Shown here: one piece after another, positions 28,714-38,832 of the stretch
Layout of the letters: each line of letters begins with the position of its first letter
Position numbering within the stretch: position 1 is the stretch's first letter
Assembly: GCA_017694495.1 (NCBI GenBank)
Contig: JADIMU010000044.1
Location: forward strand, 1 to 39,031
Length of the DNA stretch: 39,031 nt
Source: Candidatus Aphodenecus pullistercoris
GTDB lineage: Bacteria; Spirochaetota; Spirochaetia; Sphaerochaetales; Sphaerochaetaceae
Reading direction: 5' to 3'
Notes under the pieces: model-generated
Seen by the model: the letters and a program-made list of their open reading frames with translations, nothing else
Databases searched by the model: none
What the model was told of the DNA's origin: nothing
Translations under genes and position numbers: made by a program

Positions 28714-28746
28714 GGGACCGGAAAAACGCTCCGGTCCCAGTTTTTT
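28714..28746 (+). terminator. Intrinsic terminator of the ileS-trpS operon
   Basis: GGGACCGGA (28714-28722) pairs perfectly with TCCGGTCCC (28730-28738) around a 7-nt loop, followed by AG and six T residues. It lies 28 nt after the trpS stop and separates the housekeeping operon from the AT-rich secreted-protein operon. Confidence 0.92.
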
Positions 28747-29057
28747 ACTACAGAAACCGGCACACAAGCCCCTTTTGCATCGCTTCAATGTCGAATGGCT
28801 GTCCCTCATGATGGGAAAAATCGAATAAAAAGGTGCTGATTTGACAGCCTATGCTGACTTATGACATAAGTTCGTGAATTGCAAGTCCTGATATGAAAAG
28901 AATATGTATAATTATGCGTTTCCTGCTGGCGACCTTGTGTGCAAACTGTTGACATAAGTTTCCTGTGGGATGATACTTTGACTCAGCAAAAGGGAATACA
29001 TCAGTATAGTCAGTTTTTGACCACATTTGCTGGTGATGTGTGTGGTAGGGCTGGGGA
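28747..29057. promoter_or_regulatory. Control region of the AT-rich secreted-protein operon
   Basis: About 310 non-coding bases. The clearest promoter is TTGACA (28949-28954), 17 nt, GATACT (28972-28977). A second consensus -10, TATAAT (28907-28912), lacks a good -35, and another TTGACA occurs at 28841-28846. CTTATGACATAAG (28858-28870) is a perfect 6+6 palindrome, and its half GACATAAGTT recurs across the -35 at 28951-28960, as expected for a regulator-binding site repeated at two positions. The leader after the promoter is about 75 nt. Confidence 0.5.
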
Positions 29058-29636
29058 ATGAAGAAGACATTAAGAGTTTGGGCTGCTTTTCTGTCTGTTC
29101 TTTTATTTGTTTGTTTGTCGACATTGTCTGCTACTGTGATTGCAAGTCAGTCCTTTTCATATGTCTTGGATTATTCCAAACAATATGATCCTCCTTATTT
29201 TGTACAGAATTATGATGATACCAGTGAGATTACATCCGTAGGAACATCAAGTACTTCACCTAATGTAGGCTTCTTTCTCAGAGTCCCGTGTAGGGCGGGC
29301 GAGTCGGTGGATTTGAGCCATATTACTGTTAAATTCGGCCCTTTCCAGATTGACAATGATGGAGTTTTGGAAAAAACAGGGCTTCTGTATGGTATTGGTA
29401 TCTATAATTTCAAAGGGAGTGGGGGCCAATCTTCCGATTCCAGTGGCGGACTTGAGTTTTCTGGTTCTGGTGAAGAGGAATACGAAACAAATCTTGGAAC
29501 AGGAAACAAGACATTCCTCCAACATGAGTATTGCATGTTTCGAATAGATTATACGTTCAATGACAGCGACTTTTCGAAATACCAAGCTGATTCCACTCTT
29601 GTCAGTGTTGTCACAGTGGGGGTTGATGCGCAATGA
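29058..29636 (+). CDS. Secreted protein 1 of an AT-rich surface-protein operon, unknown family
   Basis: The 192-residue product begins MKKTLRVWAAFLSVLLFVCL, followed by STLSATVIASQ, an apparent signal peptide cleaved near residue 30 (IAS-QS). The mature part is acidic, rich in Ser, Gly, Thr, Asn and aromatic residues, with alternating beta-strand-like stretches (VGFFLRVPCRAGESVDLSHI, YCMFRIDYTFND) and a Gly/Ser-rich insert near 115-140; it has two cysteines. No lipobox, membrane anchor or known domain is visible. It opens the operon about 75 nt after the promoter and overlaps the next gene by 4 bp (ATGA). Base composition is far more AT-rich than the trpS side. Likely a periplasmic or surface beta-sandwich protein. 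Confidence 0.8.
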   Translation: MKKTLRVWAAFLSVLLFVCLSTLSATVIASQSFSYVLDYSKQYDPPYFVQNYDDTSEITSVGTSSTSPNVGFFLRVPCRAGESVDLSHITVKFGPFQIDNDGVLEKTGLLYGIGIYNFKGSGGQSSDSSGGLEFSGSGEEEYETNLGTGNKTFLQHEYCMFRIDYTFNDSDFSKYQADSTLVSVVTVGVDAQ

Positions 29637-30514
29637 AAAGGAGGATCATGGCATTTCTGGTGTCGATGTTTCTACTCGTTTCCGGTAGTTTTGCTGATAC
29701 TGAAACACTGGTGATAGAAGCAATCATTCCTGGAGGAGGCACATCTGGTGAAATACCTGTCCATGCTCTTGTTGTCCAGGATGTGTTCCTTCAGAATCAG
29801 AACCTGATAGCCAATGGGGATAAGATTGATGTTGGCGGACAAGGCACCGATTTGTTTGGAGATAACCCAATTCCGTTGTTCGTTGTTCGTCATGTCACCA
29901 ACAGCACAGAGCCGATAATCATATCCGTCGAAGTTTTTCCATTCATTTGCACAAATACCGATGGAACAACATCAGTTCTGACCACAAATGTCCAGAGCCA
30001 GGCTGGACTGGATGCTTATCTCAGCGATATTGAGAATTTATTTGCACCGGAATCATACACACCACCGCAGTCATTTTCCGGAAGGGAAAACCGGAATCCT
30101 GGTAATCCAGATTTTTCTGGTTCTGGGGCAAGAATGCGAATCCTTAATGATGGAAACATTGTATTAGACTCATATAATGCAGATCGCATTGTTGCAGATG
30201 CGGAGAACTCACCAGTATTGGATAATGAAAGCAGCAAAAAAGTTGATAGCTACAGTTTCCAGTTTGAAATGGCAAACTCATTAAATGGTCATTGGTCTTT
30301 TGATGAAGATACTATTTTTGGGGTTGGAACTGGATGGGGAACTTGGACGTGGATAACAGAGAGTGTTGGCTATACTACAAACAGCACAATAATCCCAAAT
30401 GGTGGCTACATAACCGAGTATGTCGAGTATTCTGTGAATATCACCGATGAGAATATTCCTACTGATGGAAAGTATGTCATGAATGTGAAGGTTAAGTTGT
30501 CGACTGACCAGTGA
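29633..30514 (+). CDS. Secreted protein 2 of the AT-rich operon, paralogous to protein 3
   Basis: The 293-residue product starts MKRRIMAFLVSMFLLVSGSF-AD, a signal peptide ending near residue 22. RHVTNSTEPIIISVEVFPF (about 85-105) lines up with SVHSNSTPIDIRIKAEPL in protein 3, suggesting a shared Ig-like or fimbrial-type fold. A linker rich in Pro, Gly and Asn lies at about 140-165. The end (PTDGKYVMNVKVKLSTDQ) has the 'G.Y...V.V' final strand also seen in proteins 3 and 4. No cell-wall anchor or lipobox is visible. It is coupled to protein 1 by a 4-bp overlap, and protein 3 begins 14 nt after its stop. Confidence 0.8.
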   Translation: MKRRIMAFLVSMFLLVSGSFADTETLVIEAIIPGGGTSGEIPVHALVVQDVFLQNQNLIANGDKIDVGGQGTDLFGDNPIPLFVVRHVTNSTEPIIISVEVFPFICTNTDGTTSVLTTNVQSQAGLDAYLSDIENLFAPESYTPPQSFSGRENRNPGNPDFSGSGARMRILNDGNIVLDSYNADRIVADAENSPVLDNESSKKVDSYSFQFEMANSLNGHWSFDEDTIFGVGTGWGTWTWITESVGYTTNSTIIPNGGYITEYVEYSVNITDENIPTDGKYVMNVKVKLSTDQ

Positions 30515-30528
30515 AGGGTGGAGGAATA

Positions 30529-31182
30529 ATGAAAAGACTATTTGCTTCTCTTCTGATTCTTGTTCTTGCTGCATCCTTTTCTGTTGCCTATGTCGAGCAG
30601 AAGTACATAGGTATGGATATCACGGCGTATAACGGTACTTATTCCGATTTCATAATTAAAACGATTAAAGGTGCGCCAACAGATGCTGTTGGCATGCCTT
30701 TTTTTCTTACGGGTGCTGATGTCCAGTATAGTACTAGTGAAGCGACTGCGGGTAGAGAGATTGCCCAATGGTCTGTCCATTCAAACAGTACGCCTATTGA
30801 TATCAGGATTAAAGCTGAACCTTTGAAACGTGTTGTTGATTCCGGTGCAGAAACAGTATTTGACAAGAATGCAACACCAATCAATTATGTACTTTTCTTC
30901 CCTTATACGTATACATGTTATGATGTAGAGACTGGGAAAATGAAGGATGTTTCAGGATTCATGCGTGTAGTATCTGGGGAGGAGGAATATAGTTCCCTTA
31001 CTGCAAATAATGCTATTTCGGATGCTTTGTTTGACAATCAAGGTGTTAGAGCAGGAATAAATACAGGAACCTTTCCTGTCAGGTTTATGCTGTCAAGCGA
31101 TGTAACTAATATAAATGACAGAGACATTTATCCGGCAGGAAATTACCGTGCGAATGTGACGATTGTGAATTCGGGGACTTGA
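30529..31182 (+). CDS. Secreted protein 3 of the AT-rich operon, paralogous to protein 2
   Basis: The 217-residue product begins MKRLFASLLILVLAASFSVA-YV, a signal peptide cleaved near residue 20. SVHSNSTPIDIRIKAEPLKR matches protein 2, and the end PAGNYRANVTIVNSGT has the shared closing strand. One cysteine is present, in FPYTYTCYDVETGKM. A strong GGAGG lies 5 nt before the ATG at 30529; a GTG at 30511 is in frame but lies upstream of that site and is not used here. Protein 4 starts 3 nt after its stop codon. No known domain is recognised; the pattern suits subunits of an extracellular or periplasmic assembly. Confidence 0.8.
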   Translation: MKRLFASLLILVLAASFSVAYVEQKYIGMDITAYNGTYSDFIIKTIKGAPTDAVGMPFFLTGADVQYSTSEATAGREIAQWSVHSNSTPIDIRIKAEPLKRVVDSGAETVFDKNATPINYVLFFPYTYTCYDVETGKMKDVSGFMRVVSGEEEYSSLTANNAISDALFDNQGVRAGINTGTFPVRFMLSSDVTNINDRDIYPAGNYRANVTIVNSGT

Positions 31183-31185
31183 GTT

Positions 31186-32613
31186 ATGAAGAGAATTGTC
31201 ATTTTGATGCTTTTGCTGTCCATCAGTACATTCTGTTTTGCATATTCTGCCACCAGCTGGTTTGCCCCTTATCCAGCTGGGTTTAACGTGAATTTGCTTG
31301 ATTCCAGCTCATATCCCGGTATAGGAACAACTACCGTAACAGACTTTCCTGCAAATGGGTATAATGATCCAACTATAGTTGCCTTGGTTGGTGTGATGCT
31401 TACAGGTGACAACTTCCAGAACTCAATCGCAAAGATATCCATCTCAATGGACTTTAAAGGTGATACACCATGGACCTATGTCTCTGCCAGCGAGCCATAT
31501 CTGAAAAGGCCGTTTGGCTTGGATTTTGTAGTATGTTATGATGATTCCCCTGAAAAAAATCCAAGAGACGTGATTTCCATAAGACCAGATTCTAATAATG
31601 GTGCTACAGTAAACTACAATGAAAGTAGTTTTACTGAAAATAAAAAAAATTATGGATGTGAGCTACCTGTCATTAATGGTAAAACGGGGGAAGTGACATT
31701 AGAGTTGCCATTGTCCGCTAAAACGCCAGTAGTCTGGATGGATATAGTACTTGCTCTTCCTTCTAATGTTGATATGTCAACAGCGCTTTCGGCTGATGAC
31801 TACTATTGCGGAATCAATATAACTTTGGATGTTGTGCAAAGAGATTCTGATAATAAAGATACTCTTGTTGCAGGAGGCCATAACTCTTGGACATATTCAT
31901 TCAATGGATACATATCATCTAGACCTGACGCGACATCTGCCAGAGTATTCTTCAATCTGCTTCCAAATGCGACAGCAAATTCAATCAATGTTTCTGACCT
32001 GCAGAATCGAAACAGTCTTCTGATTGGATCATACACCTATGAGACACAATCATTCCTTCTGCGTAACGCAGATGATGGAGATCTGGAGTACGACTATCAG
32101 AAGTACAACAACTACTATATCTTTGCCTCATCTTCCAAAGATCCTACTGATGCAGGTGGTAAATTTGCTCTCACTCTTCAAGGCTTGGATCCATCTCAGA
32201 CTGAAGGATATTCCAACACTTCTTTCAACTATGAGATTGGTATTCAGAGTGCGAATGCAGGAAAATCTATATTCTGGGTTTCAAATTCTCCTTCAAGCAT
32301 TGAGGATGCAAAAGATATGGAAGAGAGGAAAGAGGATCCCAATAAAACACCTCTAAGCGTCCCTTCTTTGAGCGATGATGACGCTTGGTTTGATGGGACA
32401 GAATCGACTGCTACATGGAGCACTGGGAATGAGCATCCTCCAATTCTGGGAACACGTGTAGAAGAGGATATGAGAGATCATATGAAGAGCCTTGTATTCA
32501 AGGATAGTGGAGATATATATATCCGGGCTACTAACGCTGCTCTTGACCCAACTAAACTCTCTCCTGGAGTCTATACTTCTACTGTTTACTTCCATGTCAT
32601 TTCCAATTTCTGA
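31186..32613 (+). CDS. Secreted protein 4 of the AT-rich operon, large subunit or tip-like protein
   Basis: The largest of the set at 475 residues, starting MKRIVILMLLLSISTFCFAY with cleavage near residue 19. The mature protein is acidic and rich in Ser, Asp, Asn, Thr and Tyr, and probably has several beta domains; the segment at about 380-400 (DMEERKEDPNKTPLSVPSLS) looks like a linker. The C-terminal domain ends DSGDIYIRATNAALDPTKLS followed by PGVYTSTVYFHVISNF. The severed gene at 36729-36884 reproduces this layout (DDGDILIR, then GGGYTADIYIHLVSNE). No catalytic motif or anchor is seen. By analogy with multi-subunit surface fibres, the longest last gene could encode a tip or adhesive subunit; this is speculative. 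It converges on the DUF4143 gene with 16 bp between stops. Confidence 0.8.
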   Translation: MKRIVILMLLLSISTFCFAYSATSWFAPYPAGFNVNLLDSSSYPGIGTTTVTDFPANGYNDPTIVALVGVMLTGDNFQNSIAKISISMDFKGDTPWTYVSASEPYLKRPFGLDFVVCYDDSPEKNPRDVISIRPDSNNGATVNYNESSFTENKKNYGCELPVINGKTGEVTLELPLSAKTPVVWMDIVLALPSNVDMSTALSADDYYCGINITLDVVQRDSDNKDTLVAGGHNSWTYSFNGYISSRPDATSARVFFNLLPNATANSINVSDLQNRNSLLIGSYTYETQSFLLRNADDGDLEYDYQKYNNYYIFASSSKDPTDAGGKFALTLQGLDPSQTEGYSNTSFNYEIGIQSANAGKSIFWVSNSPSSIEDAKDMEERKEDPNKTPLSVPSLSDDDAWFDGTESTATWSTGNEHPPILGTRVEEDMRDHMKSLVFKDSGDIYIRATNAALDPTKLSPGVYTSTVYFHVISNF

Positions 32614-32629
32614 CTTTGTGTGACACCTC

Positions 32630-33946
32630 TCAGTCCTTGAGACAGCAGATGGGAACCTCCAGAACACCGTCGTTACGCTTCATGGCGTAGTTGCCGACAG
32701 CAGTGAGGACCATAAGGAAGGACCGCGAAGGCATCTTGTCCGTATCAATCTTCGAAGCAAGCTTCTGGAGGCTCTGGACCGCTTCATTGATGGCGGTCTC
32801 GCCACCAATCTTGATCTCGATCAGGCCATATGAACCATCTGCAAGGTGGACAACGGCATCGCATTCAAGTCCTGTCTTGTCCCGATAGTGAGAGACGCTT
32901 CCTCCCAGACTTTCAGCATAGACTCTGAGGTCACGCACGCACATCGCCTCAAAGAACAGGCCCATGGTCCTCAGATCTTTTGTCAGCGTTTCTGGTCCGA
33001 CTCCCAGGGCGGCGACAGCGAGGGAAGGGTCGATGAAGTAGCGTGTATCGCTGGTGCGGATTGCAGTCTTTGAGCGCAAGTTGGGATTCCACGCCGGCAT
33101 GTCTTCGATGACGAAGAGTTTCTTCAGCGCTTCGACATAGGAGAAGGCGGTACGGTCATCAATCGAAGGTCCTCCATTGGCCTTCATGTCCTCACAGATT
33201 GCCGCAAGAGATGCCTGCTTACCTTGAAGATGGGCATAGGACCTCAGCAGGGCCCTGGTCGTCCTTCCGCTTCTGGAGACGCCATCCACACGGTGGATGT
33301 CGACATCTGCAGTCGCATTCAGATAGTCCATGGCACGGTCCAGCGCGATCTCCCGGTCCAGCATGACAGCACGGGGCCAGCCTCCACGGCAGATGAGATA
33401 GGCGATGTCATGGATGTTCCTGTCGCTTCTGCCAGCAATCCCATCGTTGCCGGCGAAGAGTTCCCTGAGGCTTACACTGCCATCAGAGTCCCTGGATTCC
33501 CACAGGCTCATTGGTCTCATCAGCATCTGTGCGATGCGGCCAGTGCCGGAATGGTGGACAGTATCAGCTTGCACATCCATGTCGAGGGGAACTGAGGATC
33601 CTGTCAGAATGAACTGGCCATCAGCCTTTCGTCTGTCGACGCACCAGCGTACTGCATCCCAGAGTTTGGGGGCAACCTGCCACTCGTCGATGAGCCGTGG
33701 AGTTTCTCCATCCAGGAGCAGCATCGGGTCGACCTGGGAGGCCATGATGTTCGCTTCGACCTTGTCCGGCTGGTCGATGTAGATGACGCTCGATGCATGC
33801 TGCTCTGCAGTCGTCGTCTTGCCAACCCACTTTGGGCCCTTGATCAGAATCGCCCCCATTCCGGCCAGCTTGCGAGCCAGAATACGGTCCGCAATCCTTG
33901 GCAGGTAGTTGGGCGAATGGCTGTTCAGAATGGCTTGTTCACACAT
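32630..33946 (-). CDS. AAA ATPase with DUF4143 C-terminal domain
   Basis: The 438-residue product has an AAA_14-type ATPase domain with Walker A KGPKWVGKTT, Walker B PRLIDEWQ and sensor FILTGSSVPLD. The DUF4143 region contains HYRDKTGLECDAVV and GSYGLIEIKIGG, a 'D...EIK' arrangement like PD-(D/E)XK nucleases. Members are abundant in gut bacteria and archaea and their role is unproven; defence, toxin-like and nuclease roles have been considered. The ATG at 33946 (MCEQAILNSHS) is only 43 bp from the left end of the IS21-family element. The open frame continues upstream into the element but those residues are not family-like. Its native promoter may have been displaced by the insertion. Confidence 0.85.
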   Translation of the reverse strand: MCEQAILNSHSPNYLPRIADRILARKLAGMGAILIKGPKWVGKTTTAEQHASSVIYIDQPDKVEANIMASQVDPMLLLDGETPRLIDEWQVAPKLWDAVRWCVDRRKADGQFILTGSSVPLDMDVQADTVHHSGTGRIAQMLMRPMSLWESRDSDGSVSLRELFAGNDGIAGRSDRNIHDIAYLICRGGWPRAVMLDREIALDRAMDYLNATADVDIHRVDGVSRSGRTTRALLRSYAHLQGKQASLAAICEDMKANGGPSIDDRTAFSYVEALKKLFVIEDMPAWNPNLRSKTAIRTSDTRYFIDPSLAVAALGVGPETLTKDLRTMGLFFEAMCVRDLRVYAESLGGSVSHYRDKTGLECDAVVHLADGSYGLIEIKIGGETAINEAVQSLQKLASKIDTDKMPSRSFLMVLTAVGNYAMKRNDGVLEVPICCLKD

Positions 33947-33988
33947 GCTTCCACTATAGAGGTTGATAGCCAAACAGTGCATATGGCG

Positions 33989-34027
33989 TGATAAAACGGC
34001 CACAGAAGCGTGAATTCTTGGCCAGCT
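33989..34027. repeat. IS21-family left terminal inverted repeat
   Basis: Begins TGATAAAACGGCCACAGAAG and aligns with the reverse complement of 36538-36576, sharing GGCCACAGAAG and a second TGGCC block. Confidence 0.7.
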
Positions 34028-34140
34028 GTGCGGGAAAACGTGGCCACCATTCATGCCCAGCCTGACTGAATGCAGTTTGATTTGGATTAGACTTCCTGGT
34101 AGCTCCGTGCGGAGCAAAATCCATTTCAGGAGGTCAGTCA

Positions 34141-35721
34141 ATGATCAACTACAGGGAGATCCTGTTCCTCTCCTATGAGAAGAAGATGGGATCTCGAGAG
34201 ATTGCGGCATCAGTACGATGCAGCAAAAGTGCTGTGAACGAATTCCTGAGCCGTTTCGAGAGGTGCGACAGGAATCTCCTGTCCTACCCGCTGGGGGAAG
34301 ATGTCACAAACGAGCGGATACGGGAGGTGCTCTACAAGCAACAGGGGAACATCTCAAAGAGCGCGCATTACAGGGAGCCCGACTATGCAGCCGTAGTCTC
34401 GGCGATGAAGAACAAGGGTGAGACGCTCAAGCGGCAATGGCGGAAATATTTCTCTGCAGGGGTCGTCGAAGGGAAAGAGCCATATGGTTACAGGCAGTTC
34501 TGTCAGCGGATGGCCGACTGGGTCTGCGACCAGGAGACGGTGAGCCACATCTTACGCAATCCCGGAGAGAACATGGAACTCGACTTCGCGGGAATGAAGC
34601 TGCGTCTGAAAAGTGCCAATCCTTCTGAAGATGGCGTTGAGGTGGTCATATTCGTCGCGACCCTGTCGTACAGCGCCTATTTCTATGCCGAAGGGCTTGT
34701 CTGCTGCGACGAGGAGAACTGGATCAGGGTCTGCAACAATGCCTTGAGCTTCTTCGGCGGCGTAACGCCAATCGTCACGCCAGACAACTGCAAGGTGGCA
34801 GTCAACCACAACAGGGACTGGGTGGAGCCATCATTGAACGAGACGTTCCAGAACTGGGCCGACCATTACCACACGGCGATCCTTCCTGCGGCAGTCAGGT
34901 CACCACGCTGGAAGCCCATGGTTGAGAACTCGGTCGGAGTGGTCACCCGCGACATCCTGGCCGAGATGAACGAGATGGTGTTCTTCTCTCTTGCCGACCT
35001 GAATGCAGAGCTCATGCGCAGGGTCGAGGAACGCAATGCCGAGAACTTCAGGGGACTTGATTTCTCAAGGCGCGACAAGTTCCTCGAATTCGAGAAACCC
35101 GCACTTCTACCGCTCCCTTCCGAAATGTTTGCAGTCACCCAGAAGAGGACGGCAAAAGTGGCAGGAGACCTTTCGGTCTTCTTTGATGGCAACCACTATT
35201 GTATGACAAAGAGGTGGGTCGGCTCCACAGTCGAGATCCGTGCCAGCTACTCGAAGGTCTCGATCTACACGCGCACAGGCACACTCATCAAGACATACCC
35301 CAGGTGCCATGGAAGGCACGAATGGGTCTATGACGAGACGACAGCGCCGAAGACGGCAAGCGACTTCTCATATTGGTCCCCAGACTACTTCAAGGCGAAG
35401 GCGACGGCCATTGGCCCGAACACGAAGGCTGTCGTGGAGAGGATACTGGCCTCGCGGAGATACCCAAACCAGACATTCAGGGCTTGCATGGGCGTCATCT
35501 CTCTCGCCAAGAAGCATGGCGTGGACGCCCTCGAGGCCGCCTGCATGCACGCGCTGGAGGCCCATCGGCCGAACTACACTTTCGTGAGGGACATGCTGGC
35601 ATCTTCCGACCATGTCGTTTTGAACAGGCAGGATGAGCCAGCGCCACGCATGCGCTACAAAGCGGATGACAGTCAGTATTCACTGGAACACCTGCTCAGA
35701 GCTCAGGAGGCGGATGGATGA
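34141..35721 (+). CDS. istA: IS21-family transposase IstA
   Basis: IstA is the DDE transposase that cuts and joins the element's ends. The 526-residue product has an N-terminal helix-turn-helix (GSREIAASVRCSKSAVNEFL) and the catalytic triad Asp148 in MELDFAGM, Asp215 in TPDNCK and Glu262 in MVENSVG. A C-terminal beta-barrel-like region follows (FFDGNHYCMTKRWVGSTVEI). The spacing and length match intact family members. AGGAGG lies 7 nt before the ATG. A leader hairpin (GCTCCGTGCGGAGC, about 34101-34114) may limit outside transcripts. The stop overlaps the istB ATG by 4 bp. Confidence 0.93.
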   Translation: MINYREILFLSYEKKMGSREIAASVRCSKSAVNEFLSRFERCDRNLLSYPLGEDVTNERIREVLYKQQGNISKSAHYREPDYAAVVSAMKNKGETLKRQWRKYFSAGVVEGKEPYGYRQFCQRMADWVCDQETVSHILRNPGENMELDFAGMKLRLKSANPSEDGVEVVIFVATLSYSAYFYAEGLVCCDEENWIRVCNNALSFFGGVTPIVTPDNCKVAVNHNRDWVEPSLNETFQNWADHYHTAILPAAVRSPRWKPMVENSVGVVTRDILAEMNEMVFFSLADLNAELMRRVEERNAENFRGLDFSRRDKFLEFEKPALLPLPSEMFAVTQKRTAKVAGDLSVFFDGNHYCMTKRWVGSTVEIRASYSKVSIYTRTGTLIKTYPRCHGRHEWVYDETTAPKTASDFSYWSPDYFKAKATAIGPNTKAVVERILASRRYPNQTFRACMGVISLAKKHGVDALEAACMHALEAHRPNYTFVRDMLASSDHVVLNRQDEPAPRMRYKADDSQYSLEHLLRAQEADG

Positions 35722-36473
35722 AGGACAACATCTATTACCGGTTGGTGGAGGAGCTGGACTACCTTGGAATGGATGCGATGGCCAGCAAGCTTGAACGTAT
35801 GCTTGATGAGCCAAGCACATTCCAGATGCCTCCGCTGGCCGTACTGGAGGCGGTGGTCGATGAAGGTTTCATCTCAAAGAAGGAGAAGACGGCGCAGAGG
35901 CTGCTCAAGAGTGGACGGCTTGCGGGCAGGATGGGAGACATCGACAGCCTACACTCCAAGAACGGCCGACTCTACAACGAGCCGGTACTCGAGCAGGTCA
36001 AAGCACTCGCATTCATCTCCAACGGAAAGAACGTATGCGTCTTCGGTGCGTCCAATGCAGGTAAGAGCTTCCTGTTGAGCGCAATCGGAAGAGAAGCCTG
36101 CTTGAGGGGGTCCAGATGCCTGTACACGGACTACATGATGCTGATGGATGAACTGGTCACCTTGCGCGTTTCAGACGTGGAGGCTTACAAGAAGAAGCTG
36201 CGCAAGTACTCCTCCATTCCGATTCTGATCATAGACGACTTCCTTTCTGAAGATGGCACGCCTGAAGTGGTGAGTGTGCTATTCCAGCTGGTGAAACAGA
36301 GGGATGAGAAGCATCTGCCAACGCTCATCGGCTCGCAATACGACCCGGGTGAATGGGGTCAGCTGCTTTGCGGTTCCCAACTGCGCAAAGGCGAAGCGGA
36401 TTCGATAAGACGACGGCTGACTGGCAGTGCCTACATCGTCGAGATCTCTCTGGAAGGGAAACAGGAGATGTGA
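35718..36473 (+). CDS. istB: IS21-family helper ATPase IstB
   Basis: IstB is a AAA+ ATPase that selects target DNA and activates IstA. The 251-residue product has Walker A GASNAGKS (110-117), Walker B ILIIDDFL, a sensor region with LIGSQYDPGEW, and an arginine-rich C-terminus (GEADSIRRRLTGSAYIVEI). Walker A reads GxSNxGKS, close to the GPTGVGKT-like form of most family members. It appears intact and translationally coupled to istA. A 10-bp perfect hairpin follows 8 nt after the stop. Confidence 0.92.
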   Translation: MKDNIYYRLVEELDYLGMDAMASKLERMLDEPSTFQMPPLAVLEAVVDEGFISKKEKTAQRLLKSGRLAGRMGDIDSLHSKNGRLYNEPVLEQVKALAFISNGKNVCVFGASNAGKSFLLSAIGREACLRGSRCLYTDYMMLMDELVTLRVSDVEAYKKKLRKYSSIPILIIDDFLSEDGTPEVVSVLFQLVKQRDEKHLPTLIGSQYDPGEWGQLLCGSQLRKGEADSIRRRLTGSAYIVEISLEGKQEM

Positions 36474-36481
36474 GCCTGCCC

Positions 36482-36510
36482 ACTCGGCCCGGACTTCTTT
36501 CGGGCCGAGT
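36482..36510 (+). terminator. Hairpin after istB
   Basis: ACTCGGCCCG (36482-36491) pairs perfectly with CGGGCCGAGT (36501-36510). No U-run follows. It probably ends or stabilises the istAB transcript inside the element. Confidence 0.5.
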
Positions 36511-36537
36511 CCTCTGGCCAGGATTCTACTCACTCGC

Positions 36538-36576
36538 GGCCACGATTACGCTCTTCTGTGGCCAAGGTTTTCCGCA
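36538..36576. repeat. IS21-family right terminal inverted repeat
   Basis: Contains CTTCTGTGGCC and ends TTTTCCGCA; its reverse complement aligns with the left end at 33989-34027 with a short internal gap. Confidence 0.7.
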
Positions 36577-36652
36577 CTATTGTCCTTTTTTTCACTCCGT
36601 ATGCAAACAGTCAAGGTTGCAATTTGTTTTATGTGAATATGTTGCGTCATCT

Positions 36653-36721
36653 GTTGGTAAATTTGGCTTGATTCCATTAGTCAATTTGGCTTCGTTCTGT
36701 TGGTCAATTTGGCTTGAATCA
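36653..36721. repeat. Three tandem IS21-end-like repeats, relic of a second element
   Basis: Three units of 22-24 nt, each containing GT(A/C)AA(T)TTTGGCTT: GTTGGTAAATTTGGCTTG, TTAGTCAATTTGGCTTCG and GTTGGTCAATTTGGCTTG, the last running to GAATCA. Spaced GGTCAATTT-type repeats ending in CA are typical of other IS21-family termini. No second istAB copy is present and the sequence differs from the ends of the intact element, so this is a separate relic. Confidence 0.5.
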
Positions 36722-36728
36722 GTCCTCG

Positions 36729-36884
36729 ATGCGCATCGAGCGCAACCAGAACAACTGGCTCCATTCCTACTATGATGATGGAGACATCCTCATCCGCTAT
36801 GCGCAAGATGGCAATGAGGAGCGCAATCTCGTGGGCGGAGGCTATACGGCAGACATCTACATCCATCTTGTCAGCAACGAGTAA
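36729..36884 (+). pseudogene. Severed 3' end of a gene paralogous to secreted protein 4
   Basis: The frame gives MRIERNQNNWLHSYYDDGDI, LIRYAQDGNEERNLVGGGYT and ADIYIHLVSNE, then TAA. Against the C-terminus of secreted protein 4 it shares DxGDIxIR, a variable stretch, a leucine, and then GxYTxxxYxHxxSN at the very end. The frame is open back to 36681, but those residues come from the IS21-like repeats. The 5' part of the gene is missing. I therefore read it as a paralogue cut by the relic element; no signal peptide or ribosome-binding site remains. Confidence 0.65.
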
Positions 36885-37000
36885 GCATTGATGCCAGCTT
36901 GACCAATGAAAGCCCTGGTTCCAAAGCCTGAAACTGGCGTGCGGACATGGTGCAAGTCAATTTGCCAGATTCACAGAGGCTTGCCTGTGGGAGCAGTCAG

Positions 37001-37077
37001 GTACGATGCGATTTGTTGACAAATAGCACCTTACAGCCGAATTGTCGGGATGGAAAGAGTCTCCAGCAAGACGGTGG
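37001..37077 (+). repeat. Diverged direct repeat, copy A (upstream of the DUF234 ATPase)
   Basis: About 80% identical by hand alignment to 38754-38832, with one 2-nt gap. Shared blocks are GCGATTTGTTGAC and CCAGCAAGACGG. In this copy the reading frame present in copy B is stopped (MRFVDK then TAG). Confidence 0.65.
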
Positions 37078-37119
37078 AGATCATTTGGGCTCTTGCGGTC
37101 TTGATGATGGCAATCTGTG

Positions 37120-37157
37120 AATTGTCAATCTATAAATTGACAATTTGTAAATTGTCA
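37120..37157 (+). promoter_or_regulatory. Palindromic operator-like array before the DUF234 ATPase gene
   Basis: AATTGTCAAT (37120-37129) and ATTGACAATT (37136-37145) form a perfect 10-bp inverted repeat with a 6-nt spacer, and AATTGTCA recurs at 37150-37157, 14 nt before the ATG. TTGACA and TTGTCA within it can act as -35 elements. Such a triple site overlapping a promoter suggests a repressor, possibly the ATPase's own product or a partner; which one is unknown. Confidence 0.5.
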
Positions 37158-37171
37158 TTTAGCTTTGAGCC

Positions 37172-38560
37172 ATGAAGAAGTTCGTGGCAAGAGAGAAGGA
37201 AGTCGAGAAGCTCGAGAAGATATTCGACAGCGACGGGTTCAGATTTGTTGTGGTATACGGAAGACGCAGGGTCGGCAAGTCCGAACTCATCAAGCATGCC
37301 ATCTCTGGTCGGGACCATCTATATTTCCAGGCGACGACTGACATGGACTTCAATCTTCGTCGTCTGTCGGCTCTGATGGGTTCCACATTCTACTCATCTT
37401 CACAAATCGCTCCTTATACGTCGATGGCGGCTGTGTTCGAGGCGCTTGTGCATCTCATCAAGGAAAGGAACTTCATCCTTGTCATCGATGAAGTGTCCTA
37501 TCTGGCACAGGCAGACAGCTCATTCCTGAGTGTATTGCAAAGCTTTGTGGACAATGATTTCCAACAGTGCGATCTGACACTGGTCCTCTGTTCGTCCAGT
37601 ACAAGCTTCATCGAGGATGATCTTCTTGGCCTGAAAAGCCCTGTCTATGGACGCAGCGCATCGACAATCAAGCTGTTGCCTTTCTCCATCGCTGAGACGG
37701 CGCTCATGCTCACCGGCTGGTCATGTGATGACATCGCCAGGGCACATGCGCTCTCTGGCGGCATCCCATACTATCTTTCATTCTTCGCGTCGCAGAAATC
37801 CCTTGAAGAGGCTGTGGAGGCCGAGTTCTTCTCTCCTGGTGGCCGGTTGCTGGTCGAACCCAGACTGCTCCTGTCGATGTCGTTCAGGAGTGTGGACCTC
37901 TATGAAGGCATCCTCGACCTGATGGCGCATGGAAACAATGAAGTGTCCGTGATCGCATCGAAAAGCGGAAAGGACAAGGCTGTGGTCAGCCAGGTCCTCT
38001 CGAAGCTTGAGGACATAGGTGTGGTCGCCAGAAGGAAGCCGATCGCTGGAGTCGGCCTGAGCCGTGGTTGGGACATCGTCGATGGTAGCTTCAGGTTCTT
38101 CTACCGCTACGTCTTCCCTTACGAGTCGAGCATCGAATATGGAGCGGGAGAAGGGGCGATGAGACTGGCCATGGATGAGCTTGACCAGTTCACAGCCAGG
38201 GAAATGGAGAAGGCTTTCCAGCGCTTCGTCCTGACACATTACAATGCGCCGATACGTACAATCGGCAATGTCGAGTTCCCCAACAGGCTTGTGCATAGGA
38301 ATGAGGAAATGGACCTTGTGGCTGTGGTCTCTTCCTCCACAATTCTCTTCGGAGAGTGCAAGTGGAGGAGAAGTCCTGTCGATGTCGATGTCTACGAACA
38401 GCTTGTCGAACGCTCTCATCTTGCCTATCCAAAGCTTGAGGACAGGCGCTATTGCATCCTCTCCAGGGGTGGCTTCACACAGGCTCTGGAATCGCTTGCG
38501 GACCAAAGTGGTGGACGTCTCATGCTGCTTGATGCCGAGGACCTGATCCGCACGAGATGA
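37172..38560 (+). CDS. Archaeal-type AAA ATPase with DUF234 C-terminal domain
   Basis: The 462-residue protein starts MKKFVAREKEVEKLEKIFDS. Its ATPase domain (PF01637-like, STAND-related) has Walker A YGRRRVGKSELI (about residues 30-41), Walker B FILVIDEVSYLA and a sensor region LVLCSSSTSFIEDDLLG. A winged-helix part follows (VSVIASKSGKDKAVVSQVLS). The C-terminal DUF234 domain contains MDLVAVV and ILFGECKWRRSP, a 'D...ECK' core typical of PD-(D/E)XK nucleases. Function of this ATPase-nuclease class is unproven. No strong ribosome-binding site precedes the ATG. Upstream is a palindromic array, downstream a coupled 83-codon frame, and diverged direct repeats bracket the unit. Confidence 0.88.
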   Translation: MKKFVAREKEVEKLEKIFDSDGFRFVVVYGRRRVGKSELIKHAISGRDHLYFQATTDMDFNLRRLSALMGSTFYSSSQIAPYTSMAAVFEALVHLIKERNFILVIDEVSYLAQADSSFLSVLQSFVDNDFQQCDLTLVLCSSSTSFIEDDLLGLKSPVYGRSASTIKLLPFSIAETALMLTGWSCDDIARAHALSGGIPYYLSFFASQKSLEEAVEAEFFSPGGRLLVEPRLLLSMSFRSVDLYEGILDLMAHGNNEVSVIASKSGKDKAVVSQVLSKLEDIGVVARRKPIAGVGLSRGWDIVDGSFRFFYRYVFPYESSIEYGAGEGAMRLAMDELDQFTAREMEKAFQRFVLTHYNAPIRTIGNVEFPNRLVHRNEEMDLVAVVSSSTILFGECKWRRSPVDVDVYEQLVERSHLAYPKLEDRRYCILSRGGFTQALESLADQSGGRLMLLDAEDLIRTR

Positions 38561-38808
38561 CCACTGTGATCGCATTCCCCAGGCTGGCAAGGATGGATGG
38601 AATCCATTCCAGTATGAAGAGTGCGCTTGTGCCTGGAGTCGGCTCGAGGGGACGCGCCTATGCCGACTACAGTCTGTTCCATCCTGATGGGACGAGGTGT
38701 GAGGCCTTCAGAAAGCGCTATGGCCTGGAGGTGCTGTCACGAGCTGTTCCCTTGTACGATTTGCGATTTGTTGACGAATATCGGCTTCCAGTCGTATTAT
38801 TGGGATGA
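38557..38808 (+). CDS. Small hypothetical protein coupled to the DUF234 ATPase gene
   Basis: An 83-codon frame starts with the ATG that overlaps the ATPase stop by 4 bp (ATGA), the spacing of a translationally coupled partner. The product (MTTVIAFPRLARMDGIHSSM onward) is basic, has no signal peptide or membrane segment, and ends in YDLRFVDEYRLPVVLLG inside direct repeat B. I recognise no family. The ATGA overlap could be chance, and the frame might be the 3' debris of a longer gene. An intrinsic terminator follows about 40 nt downstream, which suits the end of a two-gene operon. Confidence 0.4.
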   Translation: MTTVIAFPRLARMDGIHSSMKSALVPGVGSRGRAYADYSLFHPDGTRCEAFRKRYGLEVLSRAVPLYDLRFVDEYRLPVVLLG

Positions 38809-38832
38809 AAGGAGTCGCCAGCAAGACGGCGG
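38754..38832 (+). repeat. Diverged direct repeat, copy B (downstream of the DUF234 ATPase)
   Basis: Counterpart of 37001-37077 in the same orientation. It includes the last 18 codons of the 83-codon frame and the CCAGCAAGACGG block that leads into the terminator. Confidence 0.65.

Follow-up and report, generated by a model that had tools for sequence, protein, structure and literature searches.

Archaic chaperone-usher pili are associated with a pilin of the SCPU type, and in the ushers known to us the signal peptide is cleaved and no inner-membrane energy is needed. The non-classical chaperones, archaic and alternative, are most characteristically marked by an invariant arginine (Arg89 in CsuC and EcpB), and the phyla listed with such pili are Proteobacteria, Cyanobacteria and Deinococcus-Thermus (PMC4654587). 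No report of a spirochaete chaperone-usher system was found in the open literature that we searched by title and abstract. Here, four orphan genes without a domain match, located in a window of 39,031 nucleotides (the whole stretch of DNA that was analysed) from Candidatus Aphodenecus pullistercoris, are explained as pilus subunits: we consider it very probable that they encode exported subunits of a chaperone-usher pilus whose genes are split over three loci.

The four genes, A to D, lie 3' of trpS with the following features.

28714 to 28738, + strand: intrinsic terminator-like hairpin of trpS, a 9-pair stem followed by TTTTTT
28949 to 28977, + strand: possible sigma-70-type promoter 5' of gene A, TTGACA-17-GATACT, 10/12 match to consensus
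29058 to 29636, + strand: gene A, 192 aa with signal peptide, predicted small pilus subunit
29633 to 30514, + strand: gene B, 293 aa with signal peptide, predicted small pilus subunit
30529 to 31182, + strand: gene C, 217 aa with signal peptide, predicted small pilus subunit
31186 to 32613, + strand: gene D, 475 aa, predicted two-domain subunit and probable tip adhesin

When the coordinates were rechecked, the coupling of the genes was as originally predicted, with a 4 bp overlap and gaps of 14 and 3 nt; the start of gene C was placed at the ATG at 30529 behind a GGAGG and not at the GTG at 30511 of the ORF list. Two further statements of the original prediction stood: A, B, C and D all carry a signal peptide as judged by eye, and none contains a known domain, no Pfam or NCBIfam family being found up to E=10. 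A PHROGs scan of the four gave weak chance matches and nothing usable. Gene A is a single copy in its own genome. The hairpin at 28714-28738 separates trpS from the operon, and the site at 28949-28977 is a weak promoter candidate because promoter-like sites in the region were no commoner than in shuffles. The contrast in base composition noted earlier was also found, the operon having a GC of 0.41 and a GC3 of 0.36 against 0.58 and 0.77 in the neighbouring genes of over 200 aa. Nearly all congeners with the operon at this site 3' of trpS show the same low GC in it, so that composition is no pointer to recent acquisition.

Conservation of gene order in relatives, which had been proposed as a check, was observed: the set of A to D and its order are kept, with the A family preceding B, C and D, and the arrangement is therefore not due to chance. 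In eight congeners A-B-C-D directly follow trpS as in the window (L022-L025, L029-L032), at protein identities of about 20-50%. Some of these clusters have extra content, namely a further set in L024 and L030, two genomes with tandem copies, and a further small gene in L031 and L032; L027 comprises three sets, away from trpS. A profile search detected D in 13 of the 16 genomes of the genus. Recent horizontal acquisition of the operon was considered and rejected in view of the conserved site and order.

Each of the A, B, C and D profiles recognised the genes of the same name, and matches across families were weak. The segment 'NST.PI.I' said to be shared by B and C is real but was one residue out of register: it reads NSTEPI in B and NST-PI in C, and the two profiles align there. 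The C-terminal strand described as 'G.Y...V' likewise proved real and holds across the families, all of which commonly end in a strand of the G.Y...V.V.V type with the glycine mostly 14-15 residues before the end. Together with profile-profile matches, which were partly helped by the signal peptides, the weak cross-matches suggest at sequence level that A to D are mutually paralogous. As judged by eye, the first domain of D follows the signal peptide almost directly and A, B and C have an N-terminal extension, which fits D as the tip.

The region 3' of D carries a DUF4143 ATPase, an IS21 element, a remnant of a D gene and a second ATPase, in this order (window 32630-38808).

34141 to 36473, + strand: IS21-family element (istA/istB), Mu-transpos_C_2 E=8.5e-16, IstB_IS21 E=1.5e-23
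36732 to 36884, + strand: C-terminal remnant of a second D, 3' of the IS21 element, ending GGGYTADIYIHLVSNE-stop

The severed paralogue suspected 4 kb from the operon was confirmed: the remnant matches the D profile (E=9.8e-10) and encodes the C-terminal end of a second D. The IS21 element sits in an inserted region between D and this remnant. Judged by eye, the ORF at 38557-38808 is similar to the beginning of a Gfo/Idh/MocA oxidoreductase gene that lies directly 3' of D in L022 and looks like a short remnant of one, so that the stretch from 32.6 to 38.5 kb looks like a later insertion, which would have broken a second subunit cluster, together with the decayed rest of that cluster. A 71-nt direct repeat (37007-37077 and 38762-38832, 82% identical) flanks the second ATPase gene (37172-38560).

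The statement that no usher or chaperone is encoded is true for the 39-kb window, but a chaperone and a probable, divergent usher are present on contig C51 of the same genome (G000:C51). The chaperone there belongs to the PapD family (PapD_N, E=7.4e-7, 29.6 bits against a cut-off of 23), and 39 nt 3' of it lies the probable usher of 1075 aa (L035:3943-7167) which in hmmscan scored just under the Pfam Usher cut-off (E=1.5e-5, 24.5 bits against 27.1). This usher escaped detection with PF00577 in all six frames of the genome and was reached through the PapD_N search; over the family, PapD_N matched 16/17 chaperones and Usher 6/17 ushers. The usher profile aligned with FimD over 289 columns (E=9.6e-4), the plug motif included. 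In the PDB the sole match of the chaperone profile was EcpB (E=1.9e-4); residue 89 of the EcpB chain is where the Arg that is invariant in the chaperone family falls in the alignment. Comparisons of usher, chaperone and subunits with single FimD, EcpC, FimC and EcpD sequences were weak or negative, little information being expected of profile comparisons with one sequence per side, and phmmer searches of PDB sequences with D and with the usher, as well as with the usher profile, gave no useful match. A scan of the genome collection with the usher alone gave no match, whereas the chaperone profile did find relatives. Of the 139 genomes of the bacterial family, 104 carry relatives of the usher, which adjoin a chaperone in every locus inspected; named relatives are genomes of Spirochaetales and of Sphaerochaetaceae, among them Sphaerochaeta halotolerans (L101, with chaperone and usher), Pleomorphochaeta and Candidatus Ornithospirochaeta. 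The pair lies beside a V-type ATPase operon in L035, L066, L067, L068, L072, L077, L079, L081-L084 and L101, a neighbourhood conserved in many Sphaerochaetaceae. Divergent from the C51 chaperone gene, a 963-aa protein with CARDB-like repeats is encoded on the minus strand (L035:256-3147).

In the window's own genome A to D are unlinked to the usher, but in L069, from a sister genus, and in L070 and L071, from two congeners, chaperone, usher, B, C and D are followed by several small subunits in one operon. After removal of the signal peptides, E-values ran from 1e-27 to 5e-22 for the C profile against the C genes at these usher loci and from 5e-44 to 2e-33 for the D profile against the D genes there. 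The B-like gene directly after the usher in L069-L071 was matched by the full-length profile at E 1.5e-6, 2.2e-7 and 7e-5; this match was weak once signal peptides were removed, and the link of B is mostly positional. D lies near an usher in 32 loci, with a median gap of 1.4 kb (1.3-1.9 kb in 31 of them), and a gap of about 1.4 kb leaves room for B and C. The unusual export and assembly route which had been anticipated did not hold up, relatives encoding B, C and D directly 3' of the chaperone-usher pair. Over the 139 genomes of the bacterial family, 60 had both D and usher, 3 D only, 44 usher only and 32 neither (Fisher p=1.5e-7, ignoring relatedness), and within the genus the two were all or nothing, with 13 genomes having both and 3 neither (Fisher p=0.0018, ignoring relatedness). 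Two of the three genomes with D and without usher (G147, G152, G154) are incomplete. Many of the usher-only genomes belong to the Sphaerochaeta-type genus g3, and the subunits of usher-only genomes may have diverged too far for the D profile to find them. In the outgroup L085 the same chaperone and usher family adjoins an SCPU pilin (E=6.1e-10). This compact chaperone-usher operon with its SCPU pilin (L085:6640-11431) comes from a Guaymas spirochaete MAG and is a possible ancestral form.

A third locus was reached through a weak C match on contig C53 (G000:C53), where nine tandem signal-peptide genes (L180:2154-8684) encode proteins of 208-271 aa that end in the same kind of strand as the A to D families. 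A profile built from eight array members and the usher-linked small subunits (A7) revealed arrays in all D-bearing genomes of the genus but G002 (12 of 13), and in genus g16 it placed single copies next to D in most genomes. We infer that the nine genes encode shaft pilins.

The structure comparison proposed earlier was run for C and D (AlphaFold models with pLDDT of 87 and 74), and the best Foldseek matches in the PDB were in both cases chaperone-usher pilins, clear for D and with weak E-values for C. The D model matched a CfaB fusion at 7e-6, CfaE-CfaB at 2e-5 and CsuE at 3e-4, and the C model CfaB and SafA, both at about 1e-2; TM-scores on query length were low (0.29 for C, 0.16-0.20 for D). 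By VIA, domain 1 of D was closest to CsuA/B (Z 9.1 over 137 residues, rmsd 2.8), followed by CfaE (Z 8.7). Ig-like sandwiches are a common fold, and for C the best VIA values (Z 5-6.4) were tied with unrelated sandwiches.

The ushers of this bacterial family have a distinct N-terminus. All 16 examined, the one from contig C51 (L035:3943-7167) and 15 others of alignment A3, have a hydrophobic segment at the very N-terminus (mean Kyte-Doolittle 2.2-3.2), and a linker of 99-337 residues separates it from the usher N-terminal domain. The linker contains 4-27% Pro and 10-33% acidic residues and is Pro- or acid-rich in most members, in a TonB-like manner. No Ala-X-Ala site was seen by eye in the usher of the window's genome, and two hydrophobic segments are possible in the L069 and L070 ushers. 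In outgroup L085 the usher lacks a linker and begins with what looks like an ordinary signal peptide. From these sequence features it is conceivable, if somewhat less than evenly likely, that the segment acts as an uncleaved inner-membrane anchor and the linker spans the periplasm, tying the outer-membrane pore to the inner membrane and coupling assembly to it; such coupling of pilus assembly would be physical and perhaps also energetic. We know of no usher with inner-membrane anchoring, and the anchor, if real, would change the view of the mechanism of the pathway.

The four products would enter the periplasm by their signal peptides, where the PapD-family chaperone from contig C51 would hold each of them. 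D, which has two domains and hardly any extension at its N-terminus, would form the distal tip adhesin, A, B and C would act as adaptor or tip-fibre subunits, and the array on contig C53 would supply the shaft. The original prediction, a surface fibre or adhesin of several subunits, is supported by conserved gene order, family membership, the predicted folds of C and D, and the linkage to, and co-occurrence with, chaperone and usher. The idea of a new fibre family gives way to a divergent member of a known pathway, given the C51 pair and the linkage of B, C and D to the usher in relatives. The export machinery appeared to be missing because the chaperone-usher pair and the pilin array sit at two other sites of the chromosome, and the usher is itself unusual.

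Among other explanations, the C51 chaperone and usher might build the nine-pilin array alone and A to D form a separate, pilin-derived secreted complex. The lack of linkage to the usher in this genome would agree with such a division, as would the g3 genomes that keep the usher without D, but L069-L071 place B, C, D and pilin-like genes in one chaperone-usher operon, and across the genus each genome has either all of usher, D and array or none of them, G002 (no array) excepted; we regard this explanation as highly unlikely. Slightly less likely still is a donor-strand fibre that self-assembles after Sec export and needs no usher, like TasA or archaeal threads. The window itself has no usher, and the TasA fibre is among the tied VIA matches of D (Z 6.4), as are the Sulfolobus 0406 filament and Pyrodictium cannulae among those of C (Z 5.0-6.4). 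Against it, relatives carry the C and D families immediately 3' of chaperone and usher, these families co-occur with the usher, and their best Foldseek matches are chaperone-usher pilins. The least credible explanation is a recent gain of the operon as an AT-rich island without a settled role: its GC and GC3 are far below those of its neighbours and an IS21 element lies just 3', but eight congeners have the same genes in the same order at the same trpS site, with the same low GC and at identities of about 20-50%.

A chaperone-usher pilus as the best explanation extends such pili to a spirochaete family and implies that the genes for usher, tip and shaft need not lie together and that single-locus annotation therefore misses such systems. 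Its unusual traits are the three unlinked loci in the genus, the very divergent usher, and the N-terminal segment and long linker of the latter. By sequence, no subunit matched a known pilin family, C against CsuE reaching just E=0.09. SCPU (PF05229) matched neither C, D and the array members nor A and B of the window, and was found only in the outgroup L085; for want of such a match in the window's own subunits, the system is not filed as archaic.

With classical type 1 pili (FimA-H) it shares the general logic and an usher plug motif that aligns to FimD, whereas the chaperone has the non-classical Arg and no subunit similarity was found. To the alternative (alpha) class of ECP and CFA/I it is connected by EcpB as the only PDB match of the chaperone profile and by the Foldseek matches of the C and D models, which are nearest to CfaB and CfaE; unlike in ECP, the subunits have no sequence similarity to EcpD, and that of the usher to EcpC is weak. 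From the archaic (sigma) Csu pilus of Acinetobacter baumannii and CupE it differs in subunits without an SCPU match, an usher below the Pfam cut-off with a putative membrane anchor and linker, many pilin paralogues, genes spread over three loci, and a phylum absent from the published list (PMC4654587). With Csu and CupE it nevertheless shares the non-classical chaperone Arg, a probable usher, several putative small adaptors and a probable two-domain tip adhesin, CsuA/B being the best structural match of D and CsuE being among its Foldseek matches, and the L085 operon of the outgroup includes an SCPU pilin. The system is closest to a non-classical, archaic-like (archaic/alternative) chaperone-usher pilus.
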